Shown here: piece after piece, positions 23,973 through 33,147 of the stretch
Layout of the letters: every line of letters begins with the position of its first letter
Numbering within the stretch: the stretch's first letter is position 1
Source: Flagellimonas hadalis
GTDB taxonomy: Bacteria; Bacteroidota; Bacteroidia; Flavobacteriales; Flavobacteriaceae
DNA: 64,000 nt
NCBI RefSeq assembly: GCF_007785775.2
Contig: NZ_VNIK02000002.1
Span: forward strand, 62,001 to 126,000
Direction of reading: 5' to 3'
Notes under the pieces: model-generated
Told to the model about the DNA's origin: nothing
Databases searched by the model: none
The model's input: the letters and a program-made list of their open reading frames with translations, nothing else
Program-made: the position numbers and the translations under genes

Positions 23973-24581
23973 ATGGCTTTTGAATTACCAAAGTTACCGT
24001 ACGCGTACGATGCGCTGGAACCACATATAGACGCTAGGACCATGGAGATCCACCATACCAAGCACCACAACGGCTACACGACCAACTTGAACAATGCCAT
24101 TGCAGGCACCGATCTGGAAGGAAAGGACATCATGGACATTCTGTCCAACTTGGATATGAACAACGGAGCCGTGCGAAACAACGGTGGAGGATTTTACAAC
24201 CACTCGCTTTTCTGGGAAGTGATGTCCCCGAATGGAGGTGGCACGCCAAGCGGAGACCTTGCCACGGCCATCAATGATGCTTTTGGCTCTTTTGATGCCT
24301 TCAAGGAAAAATTTGCCGCAGCTGCCGCAACCCGTTTCGGTTCCGGGTGGGCTTGGCTATGTGTGCACAAGGGTGGAAAATTGGAAATCTGTTCCACACC
24401 CAACCAAGACAACCCCATCATGCCCAATGTTGGCTGTGAAGGACAACCCATTTTGGGATTGGATGTCTGGGAGCATGCTTATTATTTGAACTACCAGAAC
24501 AGAAGGGCAGATTATATTTCGGCCTTTTTCAATGTGGTGAACTGGGATAAGGTTTCAGAAAACTACAAGGCCGCGAAATAG
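23973..24581 (+). CDS. sodA: Superoxide dismutase, Mn type
   Basis: A 202-aa cytoplasmic Fe/Mn superoxide dismutase that converts superoxide to peroxide and oxygen. The metal ligands sit in HHTKHHNGY (H27), NHSLFW, and [11 protein letters not shown] (Asp and His). [12 protein letters not shown] carries Gly where Fe enzymes have Gln, and the second-sphere Gln is in STPNQDNP. That pattern is typical of Mn or cambialistic enzymes. No signal peptide is present. It is monocistronic, with a strong hairpin 22 nt after the stop. Confidence 0.96.
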
Positions 24582-24603
24582 CGGAAAAGCATTCCTTAAA
24601 ATG

Positions 24604-24634
24604 AAAAGCCGTGCACTTGTGCACGGCTTTTTTG
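24604..24634 (+). terminator. Intrinsic terminator of sodA
   Basis: AAAAGCCGTGCAC and GTGCACGGCTTTTTT form a nearly perfect stem with a two-base loop and a T tail. The A-run on its left side means it could also stop minus-strand transcripts. Confidence 0.93.
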
Positions 24635-24649
24635 TTTCCAGGCCATTGG

Positions 24650-24726
24650 TAAATAGAAAAGGGCGAGGAAGCCCCCGCCCTTTTCGTCCCAAATCTTACC
24701 ATAAACTTAACCTACTTATGCTATGG
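24650..24726 (-). ncRNA. Candidate small RNA, copy A of a repeated family
   Basis: The minus strand carries the 39-bp conserved sequence at 24688-24726, starting CCATAGCATAAGTAGGTTAA and ending GTAAGATTTGGG, then a GC-rich hairpin at 24657-24684 and a T-rich tail. Upstream, exactly 5 nt from the conserved block, is TATTTTAG (24732-24739), with TTG (24759-24761) 19 nt further, a good Bacteroidota promoter. The conserved block differs from copies B and C at one base (T for C in GTTYATGG). The predicted transcript is about 70-75 nt. Confidence 0.65.
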
Positions 24727-24847
24727 CGGGACTAAAATACTGGTATTGTGTAAAATAACAAAGGCTTTTGGGGAAATTTTTGCTTTTTGTGGAAAAAAGA
24801 AAATGTGCAGTTCGTCGATGAAATGGATAAATCCTTGGTAGTCAAAC

Positions 24848-24919
24848 ATAAAGAAGGCGGAGCATGCTCCGCCTTCTTTCCCCAAATCTTACCATGAACT
24901 TAACCTACTTATGCTATGG
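24848..24919 (-). ncRNA. Candidate small RNA, copy B of a repeated family
   Basis: The conserved 39-bp block is at 24881-24919 on the minus strand. It is followed by a perfect 30-bp palindromic hairpin (24850-24879: AGAAGGCGGAGC / GCTCCGCCTTCT) and a TTT tail. A consensus -7 box TACATTTG (24925-24932) lies exactly 5 nt upstream of the block. The hairpin sequence is unrelated to that of copy A although the 5' block is the same. Any reading frame in it would be very short (about 17 codons from the internal ATG). Confidence 0.65.
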
Positions 24920-25064
24920 TCCTCCAAATGTACGCCAAGGGGCAGCCGGCCCGATAAATTTTTGGATGAAACTCTCTTAAATGCGTTGAAGTGTACAACT
25001 TTGGTTAATAATTGACATTTGTCAAGAAAAGAAGTGATTTTTCGGATTGGGAAGGGTAGAAAAT

Positions 25065-25096
25065 AAAAAAGGTGGAATCTCTTTCCACCTTTTTTT
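25065..25096 (-). terminator. Terminator of the YD-motif gene
   Basis: AAAAAAGGTGGAA and TTTCCACCTTTTTTT enclose a short loop, about 110 nt after the stop at 25207. The stem and its flank GGTAGAAAATAAAAAAGGTGGAA are shared with the hairpin of sRNA copy C at 28.3 kb, pointing to duplication. Confidence 0.8.
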
Positions 25097-25206
25097 GACA
25101 AGACTTCCATTATGTACCTGTATTGGCCTCTTGTTGCACTAGGAGCTTTGATTTGGCTATCAGTACCAGTTAAATGATGCTTTTTTGAATTCTTTATATT
25201 TTCTTC

Positions 25207-26067
25207 CTACCTGTAATTTATATCATAAGTCGTTTTGCCGACCAATCCACCATTCTCAAAAATTTTCTTAACAATTACGTTCCCTTCGTTATCATATGTA
25301 TATTCATAACTTTTAAGTATACCAATTGTATGACCGTTTTCGTCAAGAGAGAAGCTCTTAATAACATCCCCCTGGGCATTGTATTGATAAATAGTGGTGT
25401 GATCTATGATCTTATTTTGGGTTATGATTTCTGTTTTTGTTATGCGCCCTTTTTTATCATAGTGGTTCCTTAAATAATTTTCATCGTAGTATTCTCTTGA
25501 ATCACTTGAATGTTCGACGGGAACAGTTTGTATCGTGACAATTCCCTCTTTGTAGTCATATTTATATTCTTCGGTCGAAGTTTTTCCTGATGAAATCCTA
25601 TGTCTTTTTACTTCAACAGGGTTGTTTTTCTTGTCATATTTTACCGATAGAATAAAAACCAATGTGTCATTTTCGAAATCCCTGGTCTCAATTAAATTCC
25701 GCCTTTTATCATATTTGTATTCTTTCCTGTCCCTTCTGCCATATACATTGGATTCAATAGAGGTCAATAATTTATCTTGATAATGGAAATCGGCAACAAT
25801 GGGTCTTTCCCTTGATTTAGAATACAGATAAAGGTCCATTTGCTTTAAGATCTTATTATTTTTGTTTAAAAGAATAGTGCTTACGGTTCTTAATATCTCT
25901 GTATTGCCCGTATTCAGGGAATCACTGTCGTAACCAACATCCGTTATCACCATTTTTTCTACCTTTCCCCTCAAACCAGGAATTGTTTCAAGTTCAAATT
26001 CCTTTATATGCAAAGGCTTGCACATGACCATGAGGGCCGCCACTAAAATATAACCTACTGTCTTCAT
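25207..26067 (-). CDS. Exported YD/RHS-like repeat protein, function unknown
   Basis: A 286-aa protein with a hydrophobic N-terminus (MKTVGYILVAALMVMC) that could be a signal peptide or a lipoprotein signal. The sequence before the Cys is not a classical lipobox. The body has several short YD-type repeats, such as YKYDKRRNLIETRDF, VKYDKKNNPVEVKRH, YQYNAQGDVIKSFS and YTYDNEGNVIVKKIF. These resemble the beta-hairpin repeats of RHS/wall-associated proteins but are too few to make an RHS shell. It is AT-richer than its neighbours. It lies 90 bp behind the small lipoprotein gene and shares its strand, so it may belong to the same accessory cassette. Confidence 0.75.
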   Translation of the reverse strand: MKTVGYILVAALMVMCKPLHIKEFELETIPGLRGKVEKMVITDVGYDSDSLNTGNTEILRTVSTILLNKNNKILKQMDLYLYSKSRERPIVADFHYQDKLLTSIESNVYGRRDRKEYKYDKRRNLIETRDFENDTLVFILSVKYDKKNNPVEVKRHRISSGKTSTEEYKYDYKEGIVTIQTVPVEHSSDSREYYDENYLRNHYDKKGRITKTEIITQNKIIDHTTIYQYNAQGDVIKSFSLDENGHTIGILKSYEYTYDNEGNVIVKKIFENGGLVGKTTYDINYR

Positions 26068-26157
26068 TATTGCTTTATGTCTTATTACCAATTATAGAGT
26101 CATTTGGTCTTCTACTAGCTAGCATTGAGTAACGTTGCAATCTGTTGACTCTTTTAT

Positions 26158-26508
26158 CTAAAGCCCATATTCAATTTCCAGTTTTCCTTTGGTTGCCCTA
26201 TAGGGGTCAAAAGCCCAAATTAAAGTATCCTTCCCATAATAGTCTGCATTCAAAAGTGTATCAATTTCTCCGGGCGGTATCATGTAATGGCCTCCATAAT
26301 TTACCATCTGGATTTTGATAGTATCGTTGACATTGCCTTTAATTTTAATTATGTAACCCACATAGGTTTTGTTTTCATATGGGATAAGTGTATCTACTCG
26401 TTTTTTAGAAAAATCAGTAACAACGAAATTTCTGTGATCTCCGCAATTTTTACAATCACAGGACAAGAATAAGATGGATAAAAGAAAAATAAATAATACC
26501 TTTTTCAT
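26158..26508 (-). CDS. Small lipoprotein (candidate immunity protein)
   Basis: A 116-aa protein with a lipoprotein signal (MKKVLFIFLLSILFLSC, lipobox LFLSC) and a mature, probably beta-rich domain ending TKGKLEIEYGL. Early cysteines CDCKNC could form a disulfide. No family is recognised. It starts 5 bp after the stop of the large lipoprotein with the DUF6973-like domain. The arrangement large exported protein then small membrane-anchored protein is typical of toxin-immunity pairs, but that role is inference only. Confidence 0.75.
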   Translation of the reverse strand: MKKVLFIFLLSILFLSCDCKNCGDHRNFVVTDFSKKRVDTLIPYENKTYVGYIIKIKGNVNDTIKIQMVNYGGHYMIPPGEIDTLLNADYYGKDTLIWAFDPYRATKGKLEIEYGL

Positions 26509-26513
26509 TTTGT

Positions 26514-28058
26514 TTAATTTGTTGGGATTAACTGCGATTGGTTGGTTGCCCTTCCACTTGTGCCACTTCCCTGAAGATTTGACAAGTACCTTAACTCACC
26601 ATTTACCATGGCATCCTGAATGCTTTCCGATAAGGAATCATAACCATCGGACAGCCAGTTTCTTTTATTTCTACCCACTGCATTGTTGAACAGGTCCATT
26701 TGTACTTCTTTAAAATAATTGGGGTAATTCGGTGGAGCAGGCTTATCTTCATGGGCGGTTGCCAAGTCCTCTGCCAATGTGGCCCCCAATAGAATAGCAT
26801 TTAATCCATTAAAGTAGGTATGCCTGAAGGCGTCCCCCTTTCCATTGTAGAGGGAATTTGGATAGAGATTTTCAGACTCCCATGTTGCTTTTTGTGCATT
26901 TAGCAGATAACCAAGCTGTTTAAACCTTGTCATGGCATCGAATATTGTTCTTTCAGAAACAGACATTCTCCCTTTGTAGTCTTGTTCAAAATCTTCTAAT
27001 TCCGCATTGTCAAAATCTATGAATGTCTCAACTGCGTAGTCCTTGGCTTCTGGTGAAGTGTTTATATCTAAAAAGTTATTGATTTCTTCCGCCATATATG
27101 GATTCTCTATCAGATAGGACAGTTCTGAGTGACCCATTGAATAATTGAGCCGGTGGTTTAGCACTACCATCTCATCGGCAAGTGTCTTTGCTTGGTCTGA
27201 AAAATTGTGTGCATCCAAGAAAGTGGCCATCTGTTTCCTAAAGGTATCGGATGCTGCATAAAACCAAGATCTTTCTGTTAAGGAGAGGGAATACTTCACA
27301 AAGTTCTTCAGTTCAAGGGTAAGATCGTCACCAATGGGTGAGTTGTCAAAATCATCCCCAGGGTCGGGTCCTCCGCCCCCGCCTCCTCCACCGCCCCCAC
27401 CGCCAGGACCTCCTCCACCGTCCCCTCCATCATCGAACCAGACACAATTGGTCTGGTTTACGGTATAGGTGCGGCCATCGTTGGCGGCCAGGCAGGCGGC
27501 CCCCGCAATGTGGGTGCCGCCCCAGGAACAATAGGTCACGGTGACGGAATAGCAAAACTGCACCTGTTTGGAGGCGATGTCAAGGCCTTCCGTGTCCAAC
27601 AAGGGGGTTATCTTTGGGTTGCCCGCATAGGAGAATGAGCTATGAGCCTCCATCAGTTCGGCATAGTCAGTAAGGTATTCGAGCAGGAATGCTTTAGTGG
27701 TATTGTTACTGTCTTTGAATACCACAAGGTTCTCGAAGCGTTCCAGATCCAGACTGTCACGCTTTACAAGGAAAATGTAAGTTGTGCGTCCGTTCCTCTC
27801 CAGCCTTTTGATTCTTGAGGAATCAATCGTAAAGTTGTATAGTTCCGCTTTGTCAGCAAAACTACCTTTTGTGGGATTCTTGACCTTTTGGAATACTTCC
27901 GATATGAGTGACTTGTCGCTTATCTGTCCAAAGTTGATTTCTTCAATAGAGAACTCTTGTTCTTTTGCGGCTTTTTCAGGGATTCCCTCCTCTTTTTCGC
28001 AACCGCAAAACATCAGGACCAATAGTATTGCCGATAGTAGGTCTTTTAATTGTTTCAT
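26514..28058 (-). CDS. Lipoprotein with polyglycine linker and DUF6973-like C-terminal domain
   Basis: A 514-aa protein. A lipoprotein signal (KDLLSAILLVLMFCGC) is followed by an N-terminal domain (about 20-200) with cysteines in VQFCYSVTVTYCSWGG, then a glycine run near 215-240, then a helical C-terminal domain. That domain contains GKGDAFRHTYFNGLNA, an acidic AHEDK, and MDLFNNAVGRNKRNW. This DAFRH...HE...MDLxNNxxGR pattern is what I remember of DUF6973, found at the C-termini of exported and polymorphic-toxin-like proteins in Bacteroidota. The His/Asp/Glu residues suggest a hydrolase, but activity is unknown. ATG at 28058 is used; a TTG lies three codons earlier. It heads a three-gene unit with the small lipoprotein. 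Confidence 0.8.
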   Translation of the reverse strand: MKQLKDLLSAILLVLMFCGCEKEEGIPEKAAKEQEFSIEEINFGQISDKSLISEVFQKVKNPTKGSFADKAELYNFTIDSSRIKRLERNGRTTYIFLVKRDSLDLERFENLVVFKDSNNTTKAFLLEYLTDYAELMEAHSSFSYAGNPKITPLLDTEGLDIASKQVQFCYSVTVTYCSWGGTHIAGAACLAANDGRTYTVNQTNCVWFDDGGDGGGGPGGGGGGGGGGGGPDPGDDFDNSPIGDDLTLELKNFVKYSLSLTERSWFYAASDTFRKQMATFLDAHNFSDQAKTLADEMVVLNHRLNYSMGHSELSYLIENPYMAEEINNFLDINTSPEAKDYAVETFIDFDNAELEDFEQDYKGRMSVSERTIFDAMTRFKQLGYLLNAQKATWESENLYPNSLYNGKGDAFRHTYFNGLNAILLGATLAEDLATAHEDKPAPPNYPNYFKEVQMDLFNNAVGRNKRNWLSDGYDSLSESIQDAMVNGELRYLSNLQGSGTSGRATNQSQLIPTN

Positions 28059-28171
28059 ACTTGTCAAGCTTTAAATTAATAATAAGATCTGGGGGAATCT
28101 TTAAAGCATCCACGGCAACATGTTGTAAATGAACATTGTGCTCATATACGGTTCTGCTGCACTGGGCAAGT

Positions 28172-28220
28172 ATGGGGATTGTGTGTTGGCACAAGATAAT
28201 AACTATGCCCCAATCCCCAT
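28172..28220. repeat. 10-bp perfect inverted repeat upstream of the lipoprotein operon
   Basis: ATGGGGATTG (28172-28181) and CAATCCCCAT (28211-28220) are exact reverse complements with a 29-nt spacer, 114 bp or more upstream of the lipoprotein start. It could be an operator or a decayed element end. Confidence 0.5.
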
Positions 28221-28317
28221 TGGACAAAAACCTTAAAAAAACCGGGGTTTTCCCGTAATCCTTTGGTGAAAGTTGTATCGGAGTCGGAGGAAACAGAACT
28301 GAATGGGGATGGTAGAA

Positions 28318-28391
28318 AATAAAAAAGGTGGAAGAAATTCCACCTTTTTTGCCCCAAATCTTACCATGAACTTAACCTACTTATGCTATGG
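28318..28391 (-). ncRNA. Candidate small RNA, copy C of a repeated family
   Basis: The conserved 39-bp block is at 28353-28391 on the minus strand and is identical to copy B. It is followed by the hairpin AAAAAAGGTGGAA/TTCCACCTTTTTT (28321-28350) and then TATTTTCTACC. TACTTTAG, a near match to TAnnTTTG, lies at 28397-28404, again exactly 5 nt upstream of the block. No TTG is found at the -33 position, so this promoter may be weaker. The first bases upstream (ACTAAA.TA..ATTGTGT on the plus strand) resemble copy A, so homology extends beyond the block. Confidence 0.65.
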
Positions 28392-28497
28392 CAATACTAA
28401 AGTAGGATTGTGTCCTGCCCATCGTATAAAAAGCCGCTAATCTACTCGTTTCATCGATGAAATGCACACTCTTATATGGGCCGATGGATATATAGAA

Positions 28498-30396
28498 TCA
28501 ATAAGCCCTTTCGTTCTTCCCTTCAAAGAAGTTGATGAAGGCCCGGTTCACCACGCGGTTGCCGCCAGGAGTGGGATAATCCCCTGTGAAATACCAGTCA
28601 CCCAAATTTTTGGGGCAGGCCTCGTGCAGGCTTTCCACGGTCTGGTAGATGATATCCACTTCGGCCTTTATCCCTTCTGGGCTCAATATCTCGGCAATCT
28701 TTTTGGAAATCTGCTCTGGTGTGAACGGGGCATAGAATTCCTTCACATAGTTGACAACATCCTTGTCCTTGGATTTCAACTGCGTAAGGCATTTTTCGTA
28801 GATCTCCTTGATCTTATGTGTGGTCCCTTGCTCTTCATGCAAGGCCTGGGCGGCCTTAAAGGCCACAAAGTCTTCCAACTTGGCCATGTCGATACCGTAG
28901 CAATCCGGATAACGGATTTGCGGTGCGGAGGAGACGACGATGATTTTCTTGGGCGAGAGCCTGTCCAATATTTTTAGGATACTCCTTTTTAATGTGGTTC
29001 CCCTCACGATACTGTCATCTATGATGACGAGGTTGTCGGTCTCCTTCACAGAGCCATAGGAAATGTCGTAAACGTGGGTCACCAGATCGTCCCGGTTGCT
29101 ATCTTGGGTAATGAAGGTGCGCAGCTTGGCATCCTTTATGGCAACTTTCTCGATCCGTGGCCGTACATCCAAGATTTCATGCAGCTGTTCCCCTGTTATA
29201 TTGGGGCCCAAAGCCAAGATCTGTTGCTCCTTCTTTTTGTTGAGATAGCTCTGGGCCTCTTTTACCAATCCAAAGAAAGAAGTCTCAGCAGTGTTGGGGA
29301 TATAGGAGAACACGGTGTTGGGCAGGTCGTCATTTATCGATTTCAGGATTTGGGGGAAGACCAGCTTCCCGAGCATTTTTCGTTCCTGATAGATTTCCTT
29401 GTCACTGCCACGGGAAAAATAGATGCGCTCAAAGGAGCAGGCCTTACGCTCCAAAGGTTCCAAAATCTCCTTGATGGAGACGGAGCCGTTTTTCTTCACG
29501 ATGATGGCATGCCCTGGGTCCAATTCCATGACATCTTCAAACTTTACATTGAAAACGGTCTGGATCACGGGCCGTTCCGAAGCGACCACCACCACTTCAT
29601 CATCCTTATAATAATAGGCGGGTCGGATACCTGCGGGGTCACGGACCACGAAACCGTCCCCATGGCCCAAAAGCCCACCCATGGTATAGCCGCCGTCCCA
29701 GTTTTTGGAAGCTTTTTTCAATATCTTGGCCACGTTCAGGCGTTCCGCGATCAATGGGGAGGCCTCCCTTTTGTTGTACCCTTCCTTTTTGATCTGTTTG
29801 TAGAGTTTGGCCACGGCATCGTCCAAAAAGTGACCTATCTTTTCCATAACGGTCACGGTGTCGGCCATTTCCTTGGGATGCTGTCCCAGTTCCACCAGAT
29901 TGCCAAAAAGCTCGTCAACGTTGGTGAGGTTGAAGTTGCCCGCCACGATAAGGTTACGGTGCATCCAGTTGTTCTGCCTCAAAAACGGGTGAACACTTTC
30001 TATACTGTTCTTTCCAAAGGTGCCATAGCGCACATGCCCCATCAAAAGTTCGCCGATGTAGGGGATGTTCTTTTTTTGCCATGGCACATCGTTTACATGC
30101 TCTGGGTGCTCTGCCAATGTGGTGTTGATCCTGGCATTGATCTGATCAAAAATATCCTGGATGGGCTGTTGGTTGGCGGAGCGTACCCGGCTCATATAGC
30201 GTTCTCCAGGGTTCATGTCCAACTTTATGCTTGCAAAACCGGCACCGTCCTGTCCGCGGTTGTGCTGCTTCTCCATCATCAGGTACATTTTGTTCACTCC
30301 ATAGAAAGCCGTACCGTACTTTTCCTTGTAGTATTCCAGGGGTTTAAGCAAACGGATCAGTGATATTCCGCATTCGTGCTTAATGGCATCACTCAT
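28498..30396 (-). CDS. purF: Amidophosphoribosyltransferase
   Basis: A 632-aa enzyme that makes phosphoribosylamine from PRPP and glutamine, the committed step of purine synthesis. It has an N-terminal class II glutamine amidotransferase domain with nucleophile C9 exposed after removal of MSDAIKHE, and GHVRYGTFG and NFNLTNVDE as glutaminase landmarks. The PRTase domain carries the PRPP loop VIIDDSIVRGTT. The long form with extra C-terminal residues is usual in Bacteroidota. It is preceded by the terminator of the pfkB-type gene, so it has its own promoter. purN is 2 kb away on the same strand. Confidence 0.96.
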   Translation of the reverse strand: MSDAIKHECGISLIRLLKPLEYYKEKYGTAFYGVNKMYLMMEKQHNRGQDGAGFASIKLDMNPGERYMSRVRSANQQPIQDIFDQINARINTTLAEHPEHVNDVPWQKKNIPYIGELLMGHVRYGTFGKNSIESVHPFLRQNNWMHRNLIVAGNFNLTNVDELFGNLVELGQHPKEMADTVTVMEKIGHFLDDAVAKLYKQIKKEGYNKREASPLIAERLNVAKILKKASKNWDGGYTMGGLLGHGDGFVVRDPAGIRPAYYYKDDEVVVVASERPVIQTVFNVKFEDVMELDPGHAIIVKKNGSVSIKEILEPLERKACSFERIYFSRGSDKEIYQERKMLGKLVFPQILKSINDDLPNTVFSYIPNTAETSFFGLVKEAQSYLNKKKEQQILALGPNITGEQLHEILDVRPRIEKVAIKDAKLRTFITQDSNRDDLVTHVYDISYGSVKETDNLVIIDDSIVRGTTLKRSILKILDRLSPKKIIVVSSAPQIRYPDCYGIDMAKLEDFVAFKAAQALHEEQGTTHKIKEIYEKCLTQLKSKDKDVVNYVKEFYAPFTPEQISKKIAEILSPEGIKAEVDIIYQTVESLHEACPKNLGDWYFTGDYPTPGGNRVVNRAFINFFEGKNERAY

Positions 30397-32751: not shown

Positions 32752-32873
32752 TGGGTTAGGAATTGACGTGATTTTGGATTAACTTCAAGCGGCTAAAGTA
32801 ATGTACTGAGCCTTAAGATGTTTAATTTGGGACACAATTTATCGACAAATAGTGTATTTAATCCAAAGTTTTA

Positions 32874-32913: not shown

Positions 32914-33147
32914 ATGTCAGACATTGCATCAAGAGTAAAGGCTATTATCGTTGATAAACTGGGCGTTGATGAGAATGAGGTTGTAGCTGAAGCTAGCTTT
33001 ACCAACGATCTAGGTGCGGATTCCTTGGACACTGTTGAACTTATCATGGAGTTTGAGAAAGAATTTGATATCCAAATACCAGATGATCAAGCAGAGAACA
33101 TCGCCACTGTTGGTCAGGCCATTAGCTATATAGAAGAAGCTAAATAA
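32914..33147 (+). CDS. acpP: Acyl carrier protein
   Basis: A 77-aa acidic four-helix carrier for fatty-acid synthesis. The phosphopantetheine attachment serine is in [17 protein letters not shown]. Size and charge are typical. It is first gene of an acpP-fabF pair, separated from fabF by a strong hairpin that should reduce read-through, so acyl carrier protein is made in excess. Confidence 0.98.

Follow-up and report, generated by a model that had tools for sequence, protein, structure and literature searches.

What do three near-identical 39-bp blocks encode that recur on the minus strand between purF and sodA in Flagellimonas hadalis? They lie in a 64,000-nt stretch of contig NZ_VNIK02000002.1 (positions 62,001 to 126,000; the whole stretch is called the window here), where sequence readout and pattern matching place them at 24726-24688 (block A), 24919-24881 (B) and 28391-28353 (C). 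An earlier inspection of the sequence, called the original prediction below, had proposed a family of paralogous small RNAs (sRNAs) or of short leader peptides. The first of these readings is strongly supported by the sequence comparisons: a promoter box precedes most copies, the core is near-invariant and a terminator follows. The blocks are part of a real sRNA-like family, undescribed as far as our literature scope reaches; no description was found among the listed results of searches of the published main texts, some of these searches covering the best-ranked results only. It is probable, in our judgment, that the family is a multicopy, trans-acting, base-pairing sRNA, likely acting as a translational repressor on mRNAs for surface proteins that are under the same activator as the sRNA itself.

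The 37-nt pattern CATAGCATAAGTAGGTTAAGTTNATGGTAAGATTTGG matched blocks A, B and C with no mismatches, as expected from the original prediction, and 100 shuffles of the window gave no match to it, even with up to three mismatches. Blocks B and C are identical across 39 nt, and A differs from them by a C to T change at nt 24, a second difference being the first nt beyond the block. The predicted -7 boxes were also found, each stopping exactly 5 nt before its own block (TATTTTAG at 24739-24732 for A, TACATTTG at 24932-24925 for B and TACTTTAG at 28404-28397 for C), and all three fit TAnnTTnG. Hairpins with T-runs lie 3' of the blocks, at 24685-24656 (A), 24879-24850 (B) and 28350-28321 (C). One copy, used as a BLAST query (E ≤ 0.001), matched only these three places in the 4.07-Mb genome. 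Each block is listed here as a candidate for a complete sRNA gene of about 76 nt, made up of -7 box, 39-nt core and intrinsic terminator. Bit scores are from R1, a covariance model built from 43 copies; the remnant and the neighbours purF and sodA, given last, are additions to the original prediction.

28316-28391, minus strand: sRNA copy C (C-type), adjoining purF; core 28391-28353, terminator 28350-28321; R1 102 bits
28397-28404, minus strand: -7 box of copy C, TACTTTAG, 5 nt from the core
28454-28461, minus strand: putative activator half-site of copy C, TTCATCGA, at -57 from the box, within GCATTTCATCGATGAAA (28465-28449)
24844-24919, minus strand: sRNA copy B; core 24919-24881, terminator 24879-24850; R1 93.9 bits
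24925-24932, minus strand: -7 box of copy B, TACATTTG, 5 nt from the core
24963-24990, minus strand: two direct half-sites of copy B, TTCAACGC at 24990-24983 (4 of 5 letters) and TTCATCCA at 24970-24963 (5 of 5), 20 nt apart
24650-24726, minus strand: sRNA copy A (A-type, T at nt 24), adjoining sodA; core 24726-24688, terminator 24685-24656; R1 97.8 bits
24732-24761, minus strand: promoter of copy A, with TTG at 24761-24759, a 19-nt spacer and TATTTTAG at 24739-24732
24815-24831, minus strand: distal half-sites upstream of copy A, TTTATCCA and TTCATCGA
25065-25095, minus strand: terminator-only remnant resembling the copy C terminator, on the far side of inserted genes
28498-30396, minus strand: purF, upstream neighbour in the same direction, named by homology (Pfam: glutamine amidotransferase domain)
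23973-24581, plus strand: sodA (Fe/Mn superoxide dismutase), conserved, convergent neighbour of the array

Is the array peculiar to this genome? Within the genus Flagellimonas, copy clusters were present in 22 of 24 genomes, including its own, and the two without (G007 and G014) are 83% and 75% complete. For the family we used 149 Flavobacteriaceae genomes, one per genus, 125 of them at least 90% complete. The core pattern, at up to three mismatches, was found in 45 of the 149, mostly as exact matches, and its reversed control in none. With R1 (E ≤ 1e-4), the search across the family gave matches in 121 of 149 genera (107 of the 125 more complete genomes), with one to six copies per genome, mostly in tandem; Maribacter, Zobellia, Arenibacter, Robiginitalea, Eudoraea, Cellulophaga and Kordia are named hosts among the matches listed. 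All strong matches (E < 1e-9) in a phylum sample of 296 genomes fell within Flavobacteriaceae, in 26 genomes. Weak matches outside the family came from eight genomes and 10 places; the core was absent from the nine of these places that were fetched, with at best 16 of 27 core letters.

Only 15 core sequences occur among 433 distinct copies, and the two commonest account for 371, a count biased by most loci having been fetched by pattern and by fixed letters demanded in the counting. In 20 genera chosen by model score instead, 34 copies (from 35 model hits, one of them too close to an end) share one core except for C or T at nt 24. Part of the family lacks one A in the linker, reading TAGATTT instead of TAAGATTT, which separates a short-linker from a long-linker sRNA. 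The place is conserved too: among 119 named loci, purF lies directly upstream on the same strand in 97 of the 105 with room and sodA converges on the array in 92 of the 103 with room, and the first copy starts at a median of 105.5 nt from the purF stop (n = 174; 167 within 60 to 160 nt). A mobile or transposon-type repeat, named beforehand as the finding that would speak against an sRNA family, was rejected given this fixed position and given that viral contigs had no match to one exact 19-letter pattern and plasmids none to one sRNA copy. Judged by sequence, this is apparently an extremely conserved and undescribed sRNA, carried between purF and sodA by most sampled Flavobacteriaceae genera. 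The family-wide distribution, together with the shared double sites and complementary leaders described below, goes beyond what the original prediction foresaw.

What kind of RNA would the array encode? Folding of five copies predicted the same layout in each: a hairpin at the 5' end (nt 1-28), then a linker that includes GAUUUGGG, then the terminator. In the terminator, nine of 13 pairs change on both sides, a number reached by 19 of 500 shuffles, and the covariation score was 0.207 vs 0.116, with none of 500 shuffles as high. The covariation analysis that had been called for upheld the terminator but not the 5' hairpin, to which we return. Terminator hairpins do follow each block, as predicted, but the description of them as unrelated in sequence was not quite accurate: across genera they have one common frame and vary by compensatory changes. 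A scan of the window with Rfam 15 found tRNA only. At E ≤ 10, over 24600-28500, the best match had 30.6 bits against a cut-off of 45, and Flavo-1, a comparison proposed with the original prediction, was absent from the matches, so that no family reached its gathering cut-off.

How might the copies be switched on? Across the family, a TAnnTT box stands 5 nt ahead of the core in 335 of 410 copies. For the A type, 78 copies give the consensus TTG-N19-TAnTTTAG, with a strongly conserved spacer; the consensus of B and C types has no TTG. Of the 332 non-A copies that have a box, 220 contain the half-site TT.A.C.A twice, at about -57 and about -37 relative to the box, when it is matched at 4 of 5 letters; the motif is TTCATCnAA, in two direct copies 20 nt apart. 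In the window, copy C has no half-site matching 4 of 5 letters at -37, and copy A has 5-of-5 half-sites at distal positions only. Since the motif had been derived from the same loci, it was retested on loci fetched later (34 copies), where a spacing of 20 or 21 was counted 39 times; 200 shuffles averaged 5.1 and reached 16 at most. Direct repeats about two helical turns apart are also the arrangement bound by LytTR proteins, and the activator is perhaps a LytTR-type response regulator.

The strict double site TTTCATCGAnnnnnnnTGYRTTTNATC (at most one mismatch) was found in at least 75 of the 149 family genomes, and its reversed control in none. A looser search was, among the matches listed, no better than its control, and three of nine contexts read lay inside one conserved coding frame (L357, L361, L362; L and G numbers are our handles for loci and genomes). 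Apart from the array, the exact B-type site was present in two Flagellimonas genomes, once in each. We read 70 strict-double-site places among the matches listed (30 returned and 40 fetched, one place twice). Two belong to sRNA arrays and 12 lie ahead of a second conserved RNA, which leaves 56 other places, 40 of which are followed by an open reading frame (ORF) of at least 60 amino acids. By eye, 32 of these 40 ORFs start like secreted proteins, the duplicate being counted in both numbers. A Pfam-type scan of a few ORFs from the double-site and other searches returned MAM, choice-of-anchor D, J or L, GEVED, LRR, fn3, Ig-like and DUF1800 matches; some scanned ORFs matched no family, and no domain of the type IX secretion system was found in the scanned, mostly truncated proteins. 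We infer that the secreted candidates may be type IX substrates.

A double activator-like site with two mismatches also lies in the window itself, at 32837-32863 (plus strand), shortly before the gene for acyl carrier protein (32914-33147). In another genus (L429) a site of this kind likewise precedes that gene.

Do the genes behind double sites share more with the sRNA than an activator? From the 56 other places we tested 51 distinct leaders, chosen by the double site only (four were shorter than 25 nt and one was a duplicate, L375 being L432), and compared duplex energies with 60 shuffles per leader. A z below -3 was reached by 16 of 51 leaders with the long-linker sRNA and 17 of 51 with the short-linker form, compared with one of 51 for the reversed sRNA and two to three of 69 for leaders of window ORFs (the same two RNAs at two leader lengths; ORFs of at least 150 amino acids starting with ATG, spurious ones included). 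Fisher p for double-site against window leaders was 6e-6 to 8e-5. At z < -2 the numbers were 21 and 21 of 51 (long- and short-linker sRNA) vs four to eight of 69. A first run (52 leaders including one duplicate, 25 mononucleotide shuffles) had given 13 and 16 at z < -3, with two for the reversed sRNA, none for its reverse complement, and none and one for shuffled sRNAs. The leaders of sodA and purF, with z of -0.5 and -2.1, are not clear targets. The best leaders read AGUCCCAAA...UUAACCUACUUAUG or, in other forms, AGUCCCAAA...UUAACCUACUUAUGA and AGUCCCAAA...ACCUACUUAUG, so that pairing would cover the leader and often run through the start codon. The match of L370 is antisense to almost all of the sRNA core (E -42.6).

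The reverse test began from the complement. The pattern CCCAAAN{4,28}CTACTTATGAA, which excludes the sRNA genes themselves, matched 34 places in 30 of 149 genomes, compared with five for the control. Most of 30 loci chosen by this pattern begin an ORF with a signal-peptide-like start, judged by eye. A double site with up to four mismatches lies within 130 nt upstream in seven of the 30 (shuffles, 0.0), and one of the 30, L466, coincides with L447 in the first set. By Pfam, L471 encodes a Fer4_19 protein, and L470 and L473 look similar by eye.

Complements of single sRNA parts were also searched for. In the genus, the linker complement CCCCAAATCTTACC had more matches than its control among the matches listed, and these places were rejected as targets: of 20 contexts, the exact matches are ends of a mobilisable-type element, and the remainder comprise a second repeat, which in L276 lies near a resolvase and an integrase, a conserved end that looks like coding sequence, and the isolated places L269 and L271, none of them leaders. 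The mobilisable-type element (L267, L268, L272, L278, L282, L286, with a relaxase-like ORF by eye in L268) ends in CCCCAAATCTTACC, an exact complement of the sRNA linker region that may be coincidence or an attachment core. Twenty contexts of the loop complement comprised three leaders of one small lipoprotein-like gene (L398, L399, L404), seven cases of an RNA that follows hflX, and 10 further places, of which several fall within long frames. The small lipoprotein-like leader pairs with the sRNA in three Flagellimonas genomes and one other genus (E -26.9 to -32.8).

Besides mRNA leaders, we found transcripts with little or no coding capacity that are complementary to the sRNA. A conserved gene for a peptide of 29-42 amino acids lies at L370:1222-1347 (-), L413:147-233 (+), L419:606-728 (-) and L463:1527-1652 (+), and also in L445. 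Related peptides occur at six loci, in five cases on the strand opposite one and the same ABC-transporter ATPase-like frame, and from the double site onward these loci contain one to six exact sRNA complements of 9-15 nt each. Two examples of the peptide had no Pfam match.

A second conserved, non-coding RNA (GTTCAATGGATTAATTAA, then a terminator-like hairpin with a T-run) follows the double site in several genera. Its features are as follows.

L365-L369, L373, L378, L385, L388, L418, L431 and L439, 3' of the double site: second conserved RNA, 12 examples

Most of the 12 contain CCCyAAATCTA, and a z below -2 was obtained for seven of 12 with the short-linker sRNA and one of 12 with the long-linker form; three examples had no Rfam match. 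In Flagellimonas, an RNA with a terminator downstream of hflX carries CTTAACCTACTT, and its duplex with the sRNA beat all 60 shuffles in seven of seven genomes read (E -35.3 to -45.4; own genome -35.9). This RNA and the small lipoprotein-like leaders were found via complementarity, so their scores are not independent tests. Transcripts with CCCAAATCT or CCAAATCT read TCTA in five of five short-linker genomes (L370, L419, L445, L463, L468) and TCTT in two of two long-linker genomes (L392, G039:C13), L413 being outside this comparison; L409 and L411 read TCTACC though their genus has the long linker. Seven loci with complementary transcripts had no Rfam match. That such complementary, multi-site transcripts act as sponges is a guess.

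How could these parts work together? Conservation, synteny, promoter and terminator parts, the double site and complementarity are results of computation; transcription, repression as its direction, and the activator we infer. Each block would form the 5' portion of an sRNA that acts in trans, is about 76 nt long and has its own promoter and terminator. The B- and C-type copies, which are the majority, would be driven by an activator on two direct TTCATCnAA half-sites two helical turns apart, and the A-type copy, nearest sodA in the window, would use its complete TTG-N19-TAnTTTAG promoter, so that the same RNA would come under two kinds of control. It would pair with mRNAs by its hairpin loop (CAUAAGUAGGUUAAG) and single-stranded linker (GAUUUGGGG), most likely blocking translation where the duplex lies over the leader and often the start codon. 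Secreted surface proteins would make up most of the targets; where these are under the same activator, as some would be, an incoherent feed-forward loop would result, and multi-site transcripts would perhaps be sponges. As the sRNA matches, in reverse, the start regions of cell-surface genes, it probably controls how Flavobacteriaceae dress their surface. A wider reading, which we consider somewhat less likely than not, is a family-wide surface RNA switch, with one activator for the surface genes and for an antisense sRNA array, and dedicated complementary transcripts as threshold-setting sponges; in that scheme the sponges would be the mRNA of the 29-42 amino acid peptide (one to six sites, mostly opposite the ABC-transporter gene), the second conserved RNA (CCCyAAATCTA) and the Flagellimonas RNA downstream of hflX.

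Several results weigh against a pairing sRNA with this regulon. R1 had no match (E ≤ 1e-4) in 18 of 125 near-complete family genomes, and the purF flank of 17 of these (G166 gave no purF) contained no diverged copies, only terminator-like matches with a best E of 0.017. The 5' hairpin is without covariation, eight of 10 pairs being invariant and none changing on both sides; it is too conserved for a covariation test, and an A10 to T change in the large genus g143 breaks one of its inner pairs. Strong pairing was absent from 34-35 of 51 double-site leaders, leaders of paralogous genes are not independent, and the window leaders used for comparison include spurious ORFs. No double site accompanied 23 of the 30 pattern-chosen loci. 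The first target searches failed, the linker complement leading to mobile-element ends and coding 3' ends and the loop complement not exceeding its reversed control. In L409 and L411, from two genomes, the RNA downstream of hflX departs from the genus linker type. The window's own genome has no strict double site at up to one mismatch among the matches listed and no match to CCCAAAN{4,28}CTACTTATGAA; its regulon evidence is thinner, consisting of half-sites and the one complementary RNA after hflX. Transcription of the array is itself deduced from its promoter-like and terminator-like parts.

Could the RNA act mainly through a protein instead, with the invariant core as a protein site and leader pairing secondary? 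CsrB-type RNAs titrate a regulator in this way. Nearly every one of about 39 nt is invariant across genera, which exceeds the usual need of pairing seeds, and the 5' hairpin was predicted in five of five copies folded. A titrating RNA, however, gives no reason to expect leaders that match both loop and linker around the start codon, nor does it account for TCTA or TCTT in the transcripts tracking the linker type, L409 and L411 being the exceptions. We regard this explanation as unlikely. Somewhat more doubtful still is that the complementarity is a by-product of shared promoter-leader ancestry, with no regulation. In its favour, the leaders of L363, L372, L424 and L391 are clearly related, and the target genes include paralogues. 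Yet leaders of unrelated genes pair in different alignments, namely those of LRR (L451, L475), DUF1800 (L384), Fer4_19 (L471) and small lipoprotein-like genes (L398, L462) and of the 29-42 amino acid peptide, and reversed and shuffled sRNA controls do not match.

Copies C and B of the window are separated by three inserted genes (25207-28067, minus strand). They encode a 517-amino acid protein that has a Gly-rich linker and ends in a DUF6973 domain, a 116-amino acid protein without Pfam match and a 294-amino acid protein with a weak RHS repeat match. In several relatives with cargo, a protein has a similar N-terminus and a variable C-terminus, by eye resembling a polymorphic toxin-immunity islet.

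Are the blocks, then, integration or recombination sites, beside which genes were inserted at a duplicated terminator? Cargo of differing size and content does occupy the same array spot in the window's genome (G000) and four relatives (G008, G011, G016, G017). In the window it is flanked by a copy of the copy C terminator plus about 20 nt (50 nt, 78% identical; 25095-25065 vs 28350-28321), and a second terminator-like match adjoins it in four of the five cargo genomes (own, G008, G016 and G017, not G011). Against this, C and B are at most about 250 nt apart in 16 of the 22 array-bearing genomes of the genus (G012 being split over contigs), the cargo junction is at the terminator, outside the conserved core, and promoters and half-sites are conserved, which makes such a role very improbable. 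Leader peptides or attenuators, the other half of the original prediction, are scarcely credible and were rejected: the internal ATG noted there is in each copy, and its frame diverges at the hairpin as described, but it encodes no conserved peptide, since some genera have lost 1 nt and so read on in another frame (MVDLG in 34 copies vs MVRFG) although the nucleotides are conserved, and every window copy has its own terminator.

We return to the base-pairing sRNA and to its place among known RNAs. To our knowledge, little is known of sRNAs in Flavobacteriaceae. The array sRNA would rank among the most conserved RNAs of this family, at a fixed place in most genera sampled, and both its activator site and a list of its targets have been predicted. 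If the reading is true, surface proteins would be under post-transcriptional control in a family widespread in marine, freshwater and soil habitats (PMC9723704), as FopS acts for glycan uptake in Bacteroides.

FopS of Bacteroides thetaiotaomicron, named as a family of paralogous sRNAs, is multicopy, and its members are about 65-70 nt long (PMC11697453). Their universal 5' part base-pairs at the start region of mRNAs for outer-membrane proteins, while the downstream part, which includes the terminator, is variable. It has 14 members in B. thetaiotaomicron and 12-15 per genome in other named species, which are intergenic, antisense or derived from 3' untranslated regions (PMC11697453). Compared by description, the array sRNA is likewise multicopy, has a Bacteroidota-type (sigma-ABfr type) -7 box (5 nt away in 335 of 410 copies), a shared 5' part and a variable terminator part, and is predicted to pair at mRNA start regions. 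FopS represses SusC-type mRNAs at the start codon, whereas the start-codon pairing predicted here is on other kinds of surface-protein genes. Unlike FopS, the copies form an array of one to six at one syntenic place in Flavobacteriaceae and have a predicted 5' hairpin, without covariation, where none is expected for FopS; they have no Rfam match.

Among the Rfp RNAs of Flavobacterium psychrophilum, Rfp18 pairs by its third stem-loop, with metalloproteases and a putative secreted adhesin as predicted targets and conservation beyond its species (PMC9723704). The array sRNA is also from this family and conserved beyond one species; unlike Rfp18 it has two predicted hairpins, a comparison again by description, and one of the Rfp RNAs could be the array sRNA. 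Further sRNAs named alongside FopS are OmrA/OmrB, Qrr, LhrC and the Cia-dependent sRNAs (PMC11697453). They differ from the array sRNA in lineage; here, leaders are antisense across the start codon, and there are also complementary transcripts that are non-coding or contain a small ORF. These RNAs are multicopy under a dedicated regulator, OmrA/B in tandem, and their sequences are not known to be related to the array sRNA; LhrC reportedly regulates an adhesin. What characterizes a multicopy base-pairing sRNA is found here as well, namely several copies, each with its own promoter and terminator, and a shared seed, with complementary translation-initiation regions of mRNAs found in silico. On present evidence the array sRNA would work like FopS or OmrA/B, membership in either being not shown. 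What is new relative to this known kind, and sets the array sRNA apart, is the syntenic array, the exceptionally conserved core and a putative activator site common to the sRNA and the leaders to which it is antisense.

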